A DNA stretch of 64,000 nt, from assembly GCA_019639135.1 (NCBI GenBank), contig JAHBSL010000015.1, forward strand, positions 1 through 64,000. The letters run 5' to 3'. The notes beneath the pieces are model-generated. The model searched no databases and was not told the origin of the DNA. It saw only the letters and a program-made list of their open reading frames with translations. Positions 37,708 through 53,517 of this stretch are shown here, in pieces. Within the stretch, counting starts at the first letter, position 1. Each line of letters opens with the position of its first letter. The translations under genes and the position numbers were made by a program. The stretch is from Acidobacteriota bacterium (GTDB lineage: Bacteria > Acidobacteriota > Blastocatellia > Pyrinomonadales > Pyrinomonadaceae).

Positions 37708-37757
37708 TAGGATGGTGAAGTCGAAGGCCCAGTTGCTATCGCTCCCGGTTCTGACAT

Positions 37758-37805
37758 TATGGAACATTTTGACGTACTCATAGTCGGGGCGGGGCTTTCG
37801 GGGAT
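37758..37805 (+). pseudogene. 5' remnant of a second FMO-type gene
   Basis: The fragment encodes MEHFDVLIVGAGLSGM and ends where repeat element A begins. It matches the start of the intact FMO gene 196 bp downstream (MEHFDILIIGAGLSGI) with many third-position changes, so it derives from an older paralogue rather than from a target-site duplication. The rest of that paralogue is missing. Confidence 0.75.
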
Positions 37806-37948
37806 GGAGTGCGGACACTCTTGTCCGCATCGCCGGTTCCTCCGGCGAGAAAAAACTGGCGTTTAGAGCTGCGAGGCTAAATTGAGCCCCCGAATCGCGA
37901 AGGCTCTTTCGTGCTTCGCACTCATGCGGACAGGAGTGTCCGCACTCC
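37806..37948. repeat. Palindromic element, copy A
   Basis: 143 bp with inverted ends: GGAGTGCGGACACTCTTGTC on the left and its imperfect complement (GACAGGAGTGTCCGCACTCC) on the right. Each end also folds by itself (GCGGACA with TGTCCGC), and a second hairpin (CGCCGG / CCGGCG) lies next to the left end. It sits between the FMO 5' remnant and the intact FMO gene. Copies C (40345-40487) and B (52727-52838) share both ends. A central TAAATTGAGC is shared with copy C. Confidence 0.88.
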
Positions 37949-37953
37949 GGTTT

Positions 37954-39513
37954 ATGGAACATTTCGACATTTTGATCATCGGTGCGGGGCTTTCGGGTAT
38001 CGGGGCCGGTGCGCATATGCGGATGGAGCTGCCGGGGAAGCGGTTTGCGATACTTGAGGGCCGCGAGGCGAGCGGCGGGACGTGGGACCTGTTTCGATAT
38101 CCGGGCGTGCGGTCGGATTCGGATATGTACACGCTCGGGTATCGGTTCAAGCCCTGGCGGGACGGCAAGGCGATCGCCGACGGGCCGGCGATTTTGAATT
38201 ACATCCGCGAGACGGCCCGCGAATATGACCTTGAGAAAGAGATAAGATACGGGCATCGGGTGCGGCGAGCGGAGTGGAACTCGGCGGAGGCGACGTGGCG
38301 GGTCGAGGTGGAGGTGGTTCGACACGGAGACGCGGAGAATGGGAGAAAAGGAGAAGAGGAGACTTGGGGAGAAAGAGAGGGGGAGACGCGGCGACGCGGA
38401 GATGCAAGCACACCAACGAACTGGCCGTCCGCTGAGAGAGGCGGTTCTGACGTGGCCTACTTCACTTGCAGCTTTCTTTATCTTTGTACGGGTTATTACC
38501 GGTATGAGGAAGGCTATACGCCGGAGTGGGCGGGGTTTGGGGATTACGAAGGGACGGTGGTGCATCCGCAGAAGTGGCCCGCGGGGCTGGATTACTCGGG
38601 CAAACGCGTGCTGGTGATCGGGAGCGGTGCGACGGCCGTAACGCTTGTGCCGGCGATGGCGGCAACGGCCGCACACGTAACGATGCTTCAGCGGTCGCCG
38701 ACCTACGTGGTCTCAATGCCGTCCGAGGATCGCATCGCCAATGCGTTTCGTGCCGTGCTGCCGGCAAAGGCGGCCTATGCGGCGACGCGTTGGAAGAACG
38801 TGCTGCGGCAGATGTTCTTTTACGGCCTTGCGAAGAAGCGGCCTTCGGCGATGAAGCGGCTGATCGAGAAAGGCGTCCGGGCCGAGCTTGGTGAGGAGTA
38901 TCTCGAGCACTTCCGCCCGACCTACAACCCCTGGGATCAGCGGCTTTGCCTCGTACCGGATTCGGACCTTTTTGCCGCCATCCGCGAGGGCAAGGCGTCG
39001 GTCGTGACGGGCACGATCGAGACCTTTACGAAGACAGGCGTGCGGCTCGCTGGCGGTCGGGAGATCGAGGCGGACATCGTCGTCACTGCAACGGGGCTAA
39101 TCCTTAAATTGATGGACGGTCTCACGGTCGTTGTCGATGGCAAACCTGTCGTTCACTCCGAAAAGATCGCCTACAAGGGGATGATGTACAACGACGTGCC
39201 GAATTTGGCTCAGGCCTTCGGCTATACGAACGCTTCGTGGACGCTGAAATGCGACCTGACGAGCGAATACGTTTGCCGGCTGATAAAGCACATGGACGAG
39301 CACGGGTTCCGGAGCTGCACGCCGCGGCTGAATGACGAGACAATTACCCGCGAACCGGCACTCGATTTCAACTCCGGCTACGTCTTGCGGGCGCTCGGCG
39401 AGATACCGAGCCAGGGCTCGAAGCATCCCTGGCGCCTGCATCAGAATTATGCCAAGGACCTGCGGATGCTCCGCTACGGCCGGCTTGAGGACGGGACGAT
39501 GGAGTTCAAATGA
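37954..39513 (+). CDS. Flavin-containing monooxygenase (FMO/Baeyer-Villiger type)
   Basis: A 519-residue FAD/NADPH monooxygenase. The N-terminal FAD motif is GAGLSGIGAG. The FMO/BVMO fingerprint is present as FGDYEGTVVHPQKWP, and the NADPH motif as VIGSGATAVTLVP; GLILKLMDG and VDGKPV precede the C-terminal substrate domain. Between about residues 118 and 155 there is a charged low-complexity insert (HGDAENGRKGEEETWGERE and GETRRRGDAS) encoded by purine-rich repeat DNA, absent from usual family members, yet the frame stays open. The ATG at 37954 follows repeat element A. The stop overlaps the SDR start by 4 bp (ATGA), so both are co-translated. Confidence 0.93.
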   Translation: MEHFDILIIGAGLSGIGAGAHMRMELPGKRFAILEGREASGGTWDLFRYPGVRSDSDMYTLGYRFKPWRDGKAIADGPAILNYIRETAREYDLEKEIRYGHRVRRAEWNSAEATWRVEVEVVRHGDAENGRKGEEETWGEREGETRRRGDASTPTNWPSAERGGSDVAYFTCSFLYLCTGYYRYEEGYTPEWAGFGDYEGTVVHPQKWPAGLDYSGKRVLVIGSGATAVTLVPAMAATAAHVTMLQRSPTYVVSMPSEDRIANAFRAVLPAKAAYAATRWKNVLRQMFFYGLAKKRPSAMKRLIEKGVRAELGEEYLEHFRPTYNPWDQRLCLVPDSDLFAAIREGKASVVTGTIETFTKTGVRLAGGREIEADIVVTATGLILKLMDGLTVVVDGKPVVHSEKIAYKGMMYNDVPNLAQAFGYTNASWTLKCDLTSEYVCRLIKHMDEHGFRSCTPRLNDETITREPALDFNSGYVLRALGEIPSQGSKHPWRLHQNYAKDLRMLRYGRLEDGTMEFK

Positions 39514-40343
39514 CACTTCAGAAAAATAGCGTTGCTGTGGTGACCGGTGCCGGTTCGGGCATCGGGCGGGCGCTGGCCAAGCGGCTCGCGGCCGAGGGAA
39601 TTGCGGGACTTGCGATTGCCGACGTGAACCGCGAGGGGCTTGATGAAACCGCGGCGATGCTGGGCGATACAACGGTGTCTCAGCATGTTGTGGATGTTTC
39701 GGACCGCACGGCGATGCAGGCGTTTGTCGATGCGGTCATCAGCGAACACGGCCGCGTTACGCATGTGATCAACAATGCGGGCGTCGCGCTCGGCGGCACG
39801 TTGCGGGAGGTCACGCTCGATGAGATCGAGTGGCTGATGGGCGTAAATTTCTGGGGCGTGGTCCACGGGACAAAGCTCTTCCTGCCGCATCTGGAGAAAG
39901 AGCCGGAAGCACATATCGTCAATATCTCGAGCCTTTTCGGTCTGGTCGCCCCGCCCGGGCAGACGGCCTATTGCGCGAGCAAGTTTGCCGTCCGCGGGTT
40001 TACGGAAGCTCTGCGGCACGAGCTCGAAGGGATGAACATCGCCGTTTCATCGGTCCACCCCGGCGGCGTTCGGACAAACATCGCGAACAATGCCCGCATC
40101 GCTGCCAACACCGAGCACACTGCCGAGGAGATCGAGCGCCGGCTGAAACGAATAAACCGAAACCTCTCAACGACCACACCCGACCGAGCAGCCGAGATCA
40201 TCATCAAGGGCATCAAGAAACGCAGCCCGCGGATCATCGTCGGCCCCGACGCACAACTCCTAAGCTGGATACAACGCCTTTTCCCGAAACGCTACCTCGC
40301 CATAGCCAACGCCATCAGCGGCGGCAAGCTGAAGGAGACGTAG
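39510..40343 (+). CDS. Short-chain dehydrogenase/reductase
   Basis: A 277-residue SDR. The NAD(P) motif is VTGAGSGIGRA at residues about 11-21; the central NNAGVALGG, the catalytic Ser in IVNISSLFG and the Tyr-Lys in AYCASKFAVRGF are intact. The C-terminal basic extension (LLSWIQRLFPKRYLAIANAI) is typical of the SDR branch found next to FMO genes. The product probably works on the same substrate as the monooxygenase, e.g. reduction of a ketone or alcohol before oxygenation; this is inferred from the ATGA overlap. Repeat element C starts 2 bp after the stop codon. Confidence 0.93.
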   Translation: MTLQKNSVAVVTGAGSGIGRALAKRLAAEGIAGLAIADVNREGLDETAAMLGDTTVSQHVVDVSDRTAMQAFVDAVISEHGRVTHVINNAGVALGGTLREVTLDEIEWLMGVNFWGVVHGTKLFLPHLEKEPEAHIVNISSLFGLVAPPGQTAYCASKFAVRGFTEALRHELEGMNIAVSSVHPGGVRTNIANNARIAANTEHTAEEIERRLKRINRNLSTTTPDRAAEIIIKGIKKRSPRIIVGPDAQLLSWIQRLFPKRYLAIANAISGGKLKET

Positions 40344-40344
40344 T

Positions 40345-40487
40345 GGAGAGCGGACACTCCTGTCCGCATGAGTGCGAAGCACGAAGGCAGTTCCGAAAAT
40401 TTGGACACCTTAGTGAGACTGAACGGCTCAATTTAACACACCGTTTTCGCCGCACTGCGGCGATGCGGACAAGAGTGTCCGCGCTCC
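40345..40487. repeat. Palindromic element, copy C (reverse orientation)
   Basis: 143 bp with the same ends as copies A and B but inverted relative to them: GGAGAGCGGACACTCCTGTC at the left and GACAAGAGTGTCCGCGCTCC at the right. The inner left half contains GCATGAGTGCGAAGCACGAA, matching the right end of copy A. It fills most of the gap between the SDR and hldD genes. Confidence 0.88.
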
Positions 40488-46879: not shown

Positions 46880-47561
46880 CTCGCCGAGCGGAAAAGCTCC
46901 GCTTTTCCGACAGGCATTCTATACTTCTTTCGCGGCTATGCCGCCAATTTCTATGTTCATCATCTCTCGCAAAACGCCTGCGGTCTATATCACCGCCGTC
47001 ACCCATCACAGGCTTCCGATCTTCCGAACCGACCAACTCAAGCAGGTTCTCTGCCAGGCTTACGCCGAAGCTCGCACAGGCCACGGCATTTTGATCCTTG
47101 CCTACGTTATCATGACCGACCACGTTCATATGCTCGTGAGGTCTGACAAAACGATGAGTGACATACTAAGGTTGATGAACGGTATCTCGGCACGGCGGAT
47201 CATCCAGCACCTGACCGCCAACGGACACGAAAAGTCACTTTTCAAACTCCGCGGTTCTGTACGCGGACGTAACCACAAACATTCGGTTTGGCACCACCAC
47301 ACTGATTCGCTTGAGATATTCGGCGAATCGACGTTCCGCCAGAAGCTCGAATACATCCATCAGAATCCCGTGAGGGCAGGAATGGTCGAAAGGCCGCCGG
47401 ATTATCTTTACTCGAGCGCCAGGATTTGGGCGGGAAGTGAGATCAAGGAAGAACCGCTTCAAGTGGATCATCGTGTGATCCAATGGCGGCAGCACGTGGC
47501 GGCATAGCCGCAAATATTATAGGGCATCACACGGAAAAGCATAGCTTTTCCGCTCGGCGAG
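46880..47561. mobile_element. RAYT unit flanked by nested inverted hairpins
   Basis: The outer pair is a 30-bp inverted repeat (46880-46909 and 47532-47561; CTCGCCGAGCGGAAAAGC and its complement, with 2 mismatches in the loop), each copy folding into CGGAAAAGC / GCTTTTCCG. The inner pair is a perfect 14-bp inverted repeat (GCGGCTATGCCGCC at 46932-46945 and its complement at 47498-47511), again each self-complementary. The RAYT gene lies exactly inside the inner pair: its ATG and TAG are within the two hairpins. Confidence 0.85.
46938..47507 (+). CDS. REP-associated tyrosine transposase (RAYT)
   Basis: A 189-residue Y1 transposase of the IS200-like/RAYT group. The HUH metal motif is IMTDHVHMLVRS (His62, His64), and the nucleophile Tyr139 is in RQKLEYIHQNPVRAGMVERP. 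The N-terminal VYITAVTHHRLPIF and the C-terminal DYLYSSARIWAGSE are the family boundary motifs. RAYTs cut and move REP hairpins as single strands. Here the gene sits between two inverted hairpin pairs, which are probably its own REP substrates. The ATG at 46938 is inside the inner hairpin; a second ATG at 46953 is possible. Confidence 0.93.
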   Translation: MPPISMFIISRKTPAVYITAVTHHRLPIFRTDQLKQVLCQAYAEARTGHGILILAYVIMTDHVHMLVRSDKTMSDILRLMNGISARRIIQHLTANGHEKSLFKLRGSVRGRNHKHSVWHHHTDSLEIFGESTFRQKLEYIHQNPVRAGMVERPPDYLYSSARIWAGSEIKEEPLQVDHRVIQWRQHVAA

Positions 47562-51534: not shown

Positions 51535-53517
51535 TTATCCGAGAAATCTATCGCTCCAGAGCTGAAATACCAGCAGCGTCCAGAGTTCCTTGTGGTGCGA
51601 AGCTCGGCCGGTTTCGTGTTCGGTGATAAGACGTTGGACGTAGTGGGGGTTGAAGAGGCCCTGTTGCTTTAAACTTTCGAGTGCGAGCATGTCGTGCATT
51701 AGCGGATTGAGGCGGCCCTTTAGCCATTCGGCGATCGGGATGCCGAAGCCTTTTTTGGGGCGGTGGAGGATATCCTGCGGGAGCAGTTCACGCATCGCCT
51801 CTTTCAGGATCACTTTGCCGCTCTTGCCTTTTAGTTTGTACTCGACCGGGATCGACGCGGCGAATTGGCCGACGCGAGGATCGAGGAACGGTGCACGCGT
51901 CTCGAGCGAGACGGCCATTGCCGCACGGTCCACCTTGGTCAGGATGTCTTCAGCGAGATAGAAATTGATGTCCGCGTACTGCATCTGCTCGATGACGTTC
52001 TTCGCGTCCGAGCGGCCGACAATTTCGCGGACGCCGCGGTAAATGTCGGCGTCGGTCTGGGCGAGGACGTCTTTTGAGAAAAGCTCGTTGTGCTGGTCAA
52101 TCGAAAACGAGCCGAACCACGAATGATGCCGCGTGACGGCGTCGTAATTCGCCGCACGGACGAACCGCTTTGCCTTGTAATCGAACGACATATTCTTGGT
52201 CGAAACCGGCAATGCGTTAACGACCGGCTCGATCAATCCGCGGCGGAGGATCGAGGGAATCGCCAGGTAATTTGCCGCCACGGTGTGGGCGTAATACATC
52301 GGGTAGCCGGCGAAAAGCTCGTCTCCGCCATCGCCGCCGAGGGCGACCGTAACGTGCTTGCGGACAAAGCGTGCGAGGAGATAGGTCGGTATCAGCGAGC
52401 CGTCGGACATCGGCTCGTCGAGCCAGGTGCCGATCTCGCTGATCAGGTCGCCGGCGGTCGCGGCGGAGAGCTTGTCCTCGTAATGCTCGGTATTTAGGTG
52501 CCGGGCGACCTGCCTCGCATATTTCGATTCATCGAAGCTGTCTTCTTCGAAGCCGATCGAGAAAGTCTTAACGCGCTCGGTCGCGTGTTGAACGGAAAGA
52601 GCCGCGACGGTCGAAGAATCGATCCCGCCGGAGAGCAAAATGCCGAGCGGGACGTCAGAGACCAGCCGCATCCGAACGGCGTCGGAGAGCAGGTCGCGGA
52701 GTTCTTCTGCTTTCGCGCGTAGCGATGGAGCGCGGACACTCTTGTCCGCATCGCCGGTTCCTCCGGCGAAACTATCTCGGTCATTCGAGCTTGTTCGCGT
52801 CGAAGCGACGCTCATGCGGACAGGAGTGTCCGCGCTCCAATTTAAGTCCCAATAGCGGCGGGTTGTTGCCTCGCCGTTCTCGACCGTCAGGACGTGTGCC
52901 GCCGGAAGTTTTTGAATGCCTTTGAAGATCGACATCGGGGCCGGGACGTAGTCGAACGAGACGTAGTGGCGGAATGCATCGAGGTCGAGCTCGGGCTTGA
53001 CGGCGGGATGGGCGAGAATCGCTTTAAGCTCCGATGCCCAGATCAGCTTGTCCTCAAAAACGCCGTAATACAGCGGCTTTTCGCCAAAGCGGTCGCGGGC
53101 GATGATCAGCTTTTTCCGCCGCGAGTCCCAGAGCGAGAAGGCGTACATGCCGTTAACGTGTTCGAGCAGGGCGTCGCCGTGCTCTTCGTAAAGATGCGGC
53201 AGGATCTCGGTGTCAGATTTGGTCGTAAACTTGTGGCCTTTAGCTTCGAGCTCGGAGCGGACCTCGCGATAGTTGTAGAGCTCGCCGTTCATCATCACGA
53301 CGACCGAGCGGTCGCAATTGAAAACCGGCTGGTCGCCGGTGTGCAGATCGATGATCGAAAGCCGCCGCATTCCGAGCGCGACCGTGTCGTCAAGCCACAG
53401 CCCTTCGCTGTCCGGCCCGCGATGCACGATCCGCTCGCACATCGAGTGCAGCACCGCCTCGGCACCGTCGTTCGAATCAGATCGCTTTAGGTTTATCCAA
53501 CCGGTGATACCGCACAT
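51535..53517 (-). CDS. asnB: Asparagine synthase (glutamine-hydrolysing) with an in-frame repeat insertion
   Basis: A 660-residue enzyme. The class II glutaminase domain starts with Cys2 (MCGITGWINLKRSD) and has RGPDSEGLW, MNGELYNYREVR and HLYEEHGDALLEHVNGMYAF. The synthase domain carries the PP-loop LGILLSGGIDSSTVAALSVQ and ALGGDGGDELFAGYP. Between YWDLNW and RAKAEELRDLLSDAV about 38 residues (SADTPVRMSVASTRTSSNDR, DSFAGGTGDADKSVRAPS) are inserted; normal homologues lack them. The insert is encoded by palindromic element copy B, and the reading frame is kept. The site is the linker between the two domains, which may tolerate it. The enzyme makes asparagine or an amidated glycan or peptide precursor. 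Confidence 0.95.
   Translation of the reverse strand: MCGITGWINLKRSDSNDGAEAVLHSMCERIVHRGPDSEGLWLDDTVALGMRRLSIIDLHTGDQPVFNCDRSVVVMMNGELYNYREVRSELEAKGHKFTTKSDTEILPHLYEEHGDALLEHVNGMYAFSLWDSRRKKLIIARDRFGEKPLYYGVFEDKLIWASELKAILAHPAVKPELDLDAFRHYVSFDYVPAPMSIFKGIQKLPAAHVLTVENGEATTRRYWDLNWSADTPVRMSVASTRTSSNDRDSFAGGTGDADKSVRAPSLRAKAEELRDLLSDAVRMRLVSDVPLGILLSGGIDSSTVAALSVQHATERVKTFSIGFEEDSFDESKYARQVARHLNTEHYEDKLSAATAGDLISEIGTWLDEPMSDGSLIPTYLLARFVRKHVTVALGGDGGDELFAGYPMYYAHTVAANYLAIPSILRRGLIEPVVNALPVSTKNMSFDYKAKRFVRAANYDAVTRHHSWFGSFSIDQHNELFSKDVLAQTDADIYRGVREIVGRSDAKNVIEQMQYADINFYLAEDILTKVDRAAMAVSLETRAPFLDPRVGQFAASIPVEYKLKGKSGKVILKEAMRELLPQDILHRPKKGFGIPIAEWLKGRLNPLMHDMLALESLKQQGLFNPHYVQRLITEHETGRASHHKELWTLLVFQLWSDRFLG
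52727..52838. repeat. Palindromic element, copy B (in frame within asnB)
   Basis: 112 bp (114 with the conserved AT that precedes each copy, i.e. 38 codons). Ends: GGAGCGCGGACACTCTTGTC and GACAGGAGTGTCCGCGCTCC. The left 43 bp match copy A with a few differences, including the second hairpin (CGCCGGTTCCTCCGGCG). The middle is shorter than in A and C. No stop codon appears in the asnB frame. Confidence 0.9.

Follow-up and report, generated by a model that had tools for sequence, protein, structure and literature searches.

REPINs and the RAYTs that accompany them in REPtrons have been described in Pseudomonas and enteric bacteria (PMC3116915, PMC3733652). The elements analysed in this study share with them an inverted pair of REP sequences, a tetranucleotide tag, dispersed copies and a hairpin-flanked Y1/HUH transposase. 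The tag is GGAG here, whereas it is GTAG or CGTC there; the described REPINs are extragenic, whereas our copies lie mostly inside genes and in frame (PMC3116915, PMC3733652); and the RAYT found here lacks its own stop codon and forms a fusion with a host enzyme. REP dimers within ORFs are also known from Opitutus terrae and others, but there intragenic copies are a minority and an embedded transposase was not described (PMC3733652). Acidobacteria likewise have RAYT-like genes with flanking inverted repeats, the TIRtrons (TIRYT), but these are genes flanked by TIRs, for which in-frame fusion was not described (PMC3733652).

The RPEs of Rickettsia are palindromes of ~100-150 bp that also lie in frame in unrelated and in part essential genes and encode a recurrent peptide (PMC10969869; Ogata 2000 and 2002 as cited there). 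The likeness is one of description; the host lineage here is unrelated to Rickettsia, and a RAYT with matching hairpins is present. In R. conorii, the intragenic repeats RPE-4 and RPE-6 were equated with CGTC REPs, without a dedicated transposase (PMC3733652), and as far as we found, the movement of protein-coding palindromes of the Rickettsia type has lacked one. Inteins and homing elements are likewise parasitic in-frame inserts with an endonuclease-type enzyme in conserved enzymes, but in our case the insert is apparently retained, and a splicing domain was not found by Pfam. A survey of Y1 proteins discarded unexpectedly long ones as 'gene fusions or annotation errors' (PMC6006769), so embedded cases may be commoner than known. 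In the open-access literature we found no report of in-frame or fused RAYTs, or of such elements in Acidobacteria. As far as found, RAYTs embedded in frame are new here, whereas in-frame palindromes, intragenic REPs and RAYTs/REPtrons were already known. By analogy, the family would be a REPIN/RAYT system that behaves like the RPEs. The reading that we prefer, with a probability of roughly 0.7 and from sequence comparison, is a frame-preserving system of this kind whose transposase is carried as an insert domain of host enzymes.

The element family and its copies in the window

The window is the whole stretch of 64,000 nucleotides that was analysed. The earlier note had described three copies with common ends in it, and all three were recovered:

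37806..37948, minus strand: copy A, complete REPIN, 143 bp; intergenic, immediately 5' of a flavin monooxygenase-like ORF
37806..37828, minus strand: right-end REP hairpin of copy A (GGAGT tag plus GCGGACA/TGTCCGC, as read on the plus strand)
37926..37948, minus strand: left-end REP hairpin of copy A
40345..40487, plus strand: copy C, complete REPIN, 143 bp; intergenic, immediately 3' of a short-chain dehydrogenase-like ORF
40345..40367, plus strand: left-end REP hairpin of copy C
40465..40487, plus strand: right-end REP hairpin of copy C
51535..53517, minus strand: asnB, host of copy B; asparagine synthase (AsnB), 660 aa
52727..52838, minus strand: copy B, complete REPIN, 112 bp; in frame within asnB, encoding SADTPVRMSVASTRTSSNDRDSFAGGTGDADKSVRAP
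52727..52749, minus strand: right-end REP hairpin of copy B
52816..52838, minus strand: left-end REP hairpin of copy B

When oriented, the element reads GGAGnGCGGACACTC(C/T)TGTCCGCATGAG, a variable middle and then CGCCGGAGGAACCGGCGATGCGGACAAGAGTGTCCGCnCTCC. It thus consists of two REP palindromes, inverted and ~100 bp apart, and the GGAG tag stands at the hairpin foot in nearly all copies, in place of the GTAG or CGTC of REPINs. Each end folds on itself, as had been proposed: the window contains six GCGGACAN4TGTCCGC hairpins, and none is expected from 100 dinucleotide shuffles. As single-stranded DNA the entire element forms one long hairpin, in which the two ends pair over ~23 bp (z against shuffles -8.9, -10.5 and -7.0 for A, B and C). 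A second hairpin (CGCCGG...CCGGCG) had been assigned to A and B; it is present in both, but it is not restricted to them, since nearly all copies have it, and copy C carries the variant CGCCGC/GCGGCG. The sequence said to be common to A and C, GTGCTTCGCAC (GTGCGAAGCAC on the opposite strand), is also present, and it proved to be one of at least three alternative left-end sub-hairpins.

The genome-wide search that the earlier note had suggested gave 45 palindromic sites, each matched on both strands and counted once, and 0 for the reversed control pattern. A covariance model found 23 complete copies and four fragments in the genome (4.09 Mb, 41 contigs); these are many dispersed copies, though fewer than in large REPIN families. 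The compared genomes are mostly MAGs (Pyrinomonadaceae / Acidobacteria). The exact 23-base core was found in 21 of 119 genomes of the family, all 21 in the genus of this genome, and the covariance model matched 38 of the 41 genomes of that genus, with totals over both strands that were not taken as copy numbers. The middles are almost unrelated between copies while the ends are nearly identical, in agreement with the earlier description. Simple copying does not explain identical ends with fully different middles; copies may exchange sequence at their hairpin ends, or the middle may drift as coding sequence while the ends are renewed.

An orthologue of copy A, with a homologous middle, is present in a related genome, G046. 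The opening codons of the flavin monooxygenase (MEHFDVLIVGAGLSG) occur twice, at 37757-37814 and 37952-38009, flanking copy A, with 78% identity. The doubled start is found in G046 too, so the arrangement is old; it may be the remnant of a second gene copy lost through recombination. A purine-rich GGAGANNN repeat at 38326-38402, in frame within the same ORF and common to G046, is possibly another family of in-frame inserts.

In-frame placement inside host genes

What had been overlooked is that the elements are mostly protein-coding inserts. Nineteen of the 23 complete copies are genic, not extragenic as in REPINs; they lie in frame and free of stops in long ORFs of 15 host genes, in the same strand sense throughout. 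The hosts, whose identities are backed by family-model matches, are TatD, an M14 peptidase, LeuS, CarB, FdhF/YdeP, MetH, an RtcB-like protein, GH92, TrmFO, AsnB, an acyl-CoA synthetase (three copies), an alpha-2-macroglobulin (three copies), a fatty acyl-CoA ligase, a glutamate-synthase-like oxidoreductase and a pyruvate-ferredoxin-type oxidoreductase. Seventeen of the 19 read xGG AGC GCG GAC ACT CCT GTC CGC (SADTPVR...), and the other two (L028, L030) have a variant left end and use a different frame, with the host frame still open. Stop-free in-frame insertion with a conserved peptide is also what characterizes the RPEs. Copy B is an example, although its genic position had been missed: its insert falls between the two domains of AsnB (Pfam GATase_7 51-169, Asn_synthase 272-655), and a PDB alignment of the protein is interrupted around it, at residues 229/270. 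Half elements with a single REP also occur in frame, in a ThiC-like ORF (L044 ~2041-2079) and a DUF1446-like ORF (L036 ~2027-2060), both named by eye.

The length is 1 mod 3 in 17 of the 19 genic copies of this genome. In relatives it is so in 39 of 41 genic versus 9 of 25 non-genic copies (Fisher p 2.5e-7), counts that are partly dependent since some insertions are ancestral and common to several genomes. In the G000 length table, copy A was counted as intergenic although a spurious antisense ORF overlaps it. In this genome, stops interrupt the coding frame in 4 of 4 intergenic copies, including a TAA in the SADTPVR frame of copy A and another in that of copy C, but in 0 of the 17 genic copies that use this frame. 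These contrasts bear on the idea that in-frame placement merely reflects long ORFs that arise by chance in GC-rich DNA, or errors of assembly. GC-rich palindromes are indeed open in several frames, and the antisense ORF over copy A is such a case. We nevertheless rejected the idea and give it a negligible probability, because host family models match on either side of the inserts, reciprocal empty sites exist, the mod-3 and stop-codon contrasts hold and the same pattern is seen across independently assembled genomes.

In genic copies the middles are made up largely of S, G, A, D, E, T and N residues; the insert peptides are hydrophilic and are placed where solved relatives show loops. The hosts are conserved and in part essential enzymes such as LeuS, which would fit removal of the inserts after transcription or translation, by RNA splicing, ribosome bypass or protein splicing, so that the host proteins never carry them. 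Hydrophilic inserts at loops argue against this. RNA removal or bypass would also not require the inserts to stay open and in frame, as they do, and Pfam scans of the proteins with an embedded RAYT (see below) found no intein Hint splicing domain. We regard removal as very improbable.

In this genome an element occupies the LeuS site, a turn before KMSKS; the site is empty in G069, G046, G081, G065 and most others. The same turn has different in-frame inserts in G083, G062 and G074, and what look like shrunken in-frame remnants in G045, G080 and G077. That one site is found empty, filled or shrunken among relatives supports the REPIN-like view of the earlier note. Other sites are shared: the asnB site of copy B is also filled in G077 and G081, and the TatD, GH92, TrmFO and asnB sites are common to several species, where the element is sometimes inverted or has a different middle. 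The earlier note held that mobility would be unlikely if only three copies existed or if copies lay at fixed sites in related strains. The former is not the case, as many copies exist; the latter is true of some sites, and the conservation of these sites between species implies that those insertions are old. Classical DDE-type MITEs have terminal inverted repeats and target-site duplications; inverted ends are present here, and at the acyl-CoA synthetase and LeuS junctions, where the host codons have diverged, no clear target-site duplication was seen. At the TatD and GH92 sites (L047, L055, L053, L133) the element has opposite orientations between species and is in frame both ways, so its reverse strand is an open coding frame too.

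A RAYT within acyl-CoA synthetase and PriA

The earlier note suggested that the elements are REPIN-like and moved by a RAYT encoded elsewhere. This agrees with what was found on contig C9: among the 11 Y1_Tnp genes of the genome, the C9 member has the hairpins of the elements on both flanks, as it sits between a complete element and the right end of another. REPINs and a RAYT flanked by the same REP thus occur in one genome. The protein belongs to the RAYT family (NCBIfam NF047646, 96.2 bits, cutoff 80; PDB 4er8, E 3e-12). What the note had missed is that this RAYT is itself embedded in a host enzyme. With its flanking elements it is in frame at both ends within a 1004-aa acyl-CoA synthetase; it is not a stand-alone gene but shares a 1007-codon open frame with the synthetase. 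The AMP-binding domain is split around Y1_Tnp in Pfam, and the alignment of the synthetase to PDB 8rpk picks up again across three gaps. Since there is no stop after the RAYT, any RAYT product of this locus includes the second half of the host enzyme. The window has a RAYT of its own (46938-47507), which is freestanding (NCBIfam NF047646, 95.5 bits) and unrelated to the embedded clade; it was set aside as the mover because GCGGACA hairpins are absent beside it. Covariance-model matches are more numerous in genomes with an embedded RAYT (median 24 versus 12, p 6e-4; related genomes treated as independent). From the flanking hairpins and this association, the C9 RAYT is likely to be the cognate of the elements.

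A structure prediction was made for a synthetase-RAYT chimera, L205. In pLDDT, the RAYT blocks were modelled at ~72-98 and the flanking element peptides mostly below 50, with a mean of 49.1, and apart from the RAYT domain only one N-terminal segment was well modelled. The synthetase was poorly modelled because few synthetases were in the alignment, and the prediction is uninformative on the enzyme. For the insert, the model supports a self-contained RAYT domain with disordered linkers.

Searching the proteins of the family placed all 11 close relatives (>=56% identity) of this RAYT in host frames, those of acyl-CoA synthetase or PriA. One of them (G054) is at a contig edge, where it adjoins the start of its synthetase gene, and two are in PriA, namely L206, with PriA domains on either side, and L071. 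The next relatives (<=49% identity) are mostly freestanding, in frames of ~200-350 aa. The HUH and catalytic Tyr motifs are invariant or near-invariant among ten embedded members. In 8 of 33 genomes of the genus the acyl-CoA synthetase holds a whole RAYT (site 85 in three genomes, site 386 in the other five), and across the 33 genomes the same three points of this enzyme are filled in frame by several unrelated repeat families. Other in-frame families at sites 85, 386 and 581 (L077-L126) are SPPYEGGVA.., PPASAGG.., SSLITHHSS.. and NADAIVRNE... At the right end of an insert from a different repeat family, G045 loses the synthetase frame (L115, C18 ~312700-313010); this is either a pseudogene or an assembly error.

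The RAYTs of G083 and G062, at the same site and the sole pair with unsaturated synonymous change, have dN 0.09 and dS 1.09. Such purifying selection, and the presence of several inserts at conserved sites, would be expected if the RAYT had become a domesticated functional domain in the synthetase, with the small elements as old, immobile linker insertions passed on vertically. We consider this unlikely: the same RAYT clade is found at two synthetase sites and in PriA and is missing from most genomes, the LeuS insert is missing from near relatives, and the sites are also used by unrelated repeat families. The RAYTs of site 386 and of PriA form one clade with PriA nested within it, so that by sequence the RAYT appears to have moved between acyl-CoA synthetase and PriA.

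It is a separate question whether insertion prefers the same allelic site in other strains, as with homing endonucleases, or is random and followed by selection. Many genomes have inserts at identical points of one gene, the RAYTs cluster by site, and in G057 the RAYT tree is discordant with the host tree, all of which would suit homing. Since unrelated repeat families share these sites, structural tolerance alone may suffice, and exchange of host genes may also produce the pattern. Homing seems doubtful to us.

The preferred reading, a frame-preserving REPIN/RAYT system, would then operate as follows. The REPIN is a pair of inverted REP hairpins with a 5'-GGAG tag and a variable middle, which the cognate RAYT, a Y1/HUH transposase, most likely copies or moves as single-stranded DNA. 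The RAYT would be produced as an insert domain of its host enzyme that folds independently and is joined through flexible linkers encoded by the element, and would act on the hairpins in the fused state. Insertions would survive selection only if they remain open and lengthen the gene by a multiple of three bases; elements would then be kept without loss of genes and erode through in-frame deletions. We infer that the inserts are translated, and that the fused RAYT is active and serves as the mover. That several sites are conserved between species, so that many copies are old, counts against this reading, as do the broken synthetase frame of G045, the two genic copies with a different frame, the unequal conservation of ends and middles, and the prevalence of MAGs among the genomes. 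If it holds, a mobile element could multiply without gene inactivation and would naturally supply insert domains and linkers, with a testable set of host proteins, and the lifestyle of the Rickettsia type would here be paired with a plausible mover, itself carried in frame within host enzymes.

Embedded RAYTs outside the genus

Of the best 80 RAYT loci, chosen by similarity from a collection covering 84,980 species, 14 from outside the genus occupy frames of >400 aa; this number excludes L282 (480 aa), which has only 5 residues past the RAYT and is not a firm case, nor is L233, with a run of N upstream. Methyltransferases of the DUF1156 type have embedded RAYTs at two sites, and L218 and L216 provide reciprocal empty sites for them. 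In L277, an MmeI-like enzyme, host domains are found on both sides of the RAYT. UDG and SNF2 cases, with a host domain downstream only, are weaker. Embedded RAYTs thus appear to recur in other phyla, in DUF1156 and MmeI-type methyltransferases.

A wider reading, to which we give even chances, is a class of RAYTs that replicates only as in-frame inserts of host proteins (acyl-CoA synthetase, PriA, DUF1156/MmeI methyltransferases) at fixed structural loops across phyla, and that scatters frame-preserving, linker-adding REPINs. One DUF1156 methyltransferase frame in a Methylococcaceae MAG (L241:3341-7633) contains two RAYTs, which occupy both known sites.
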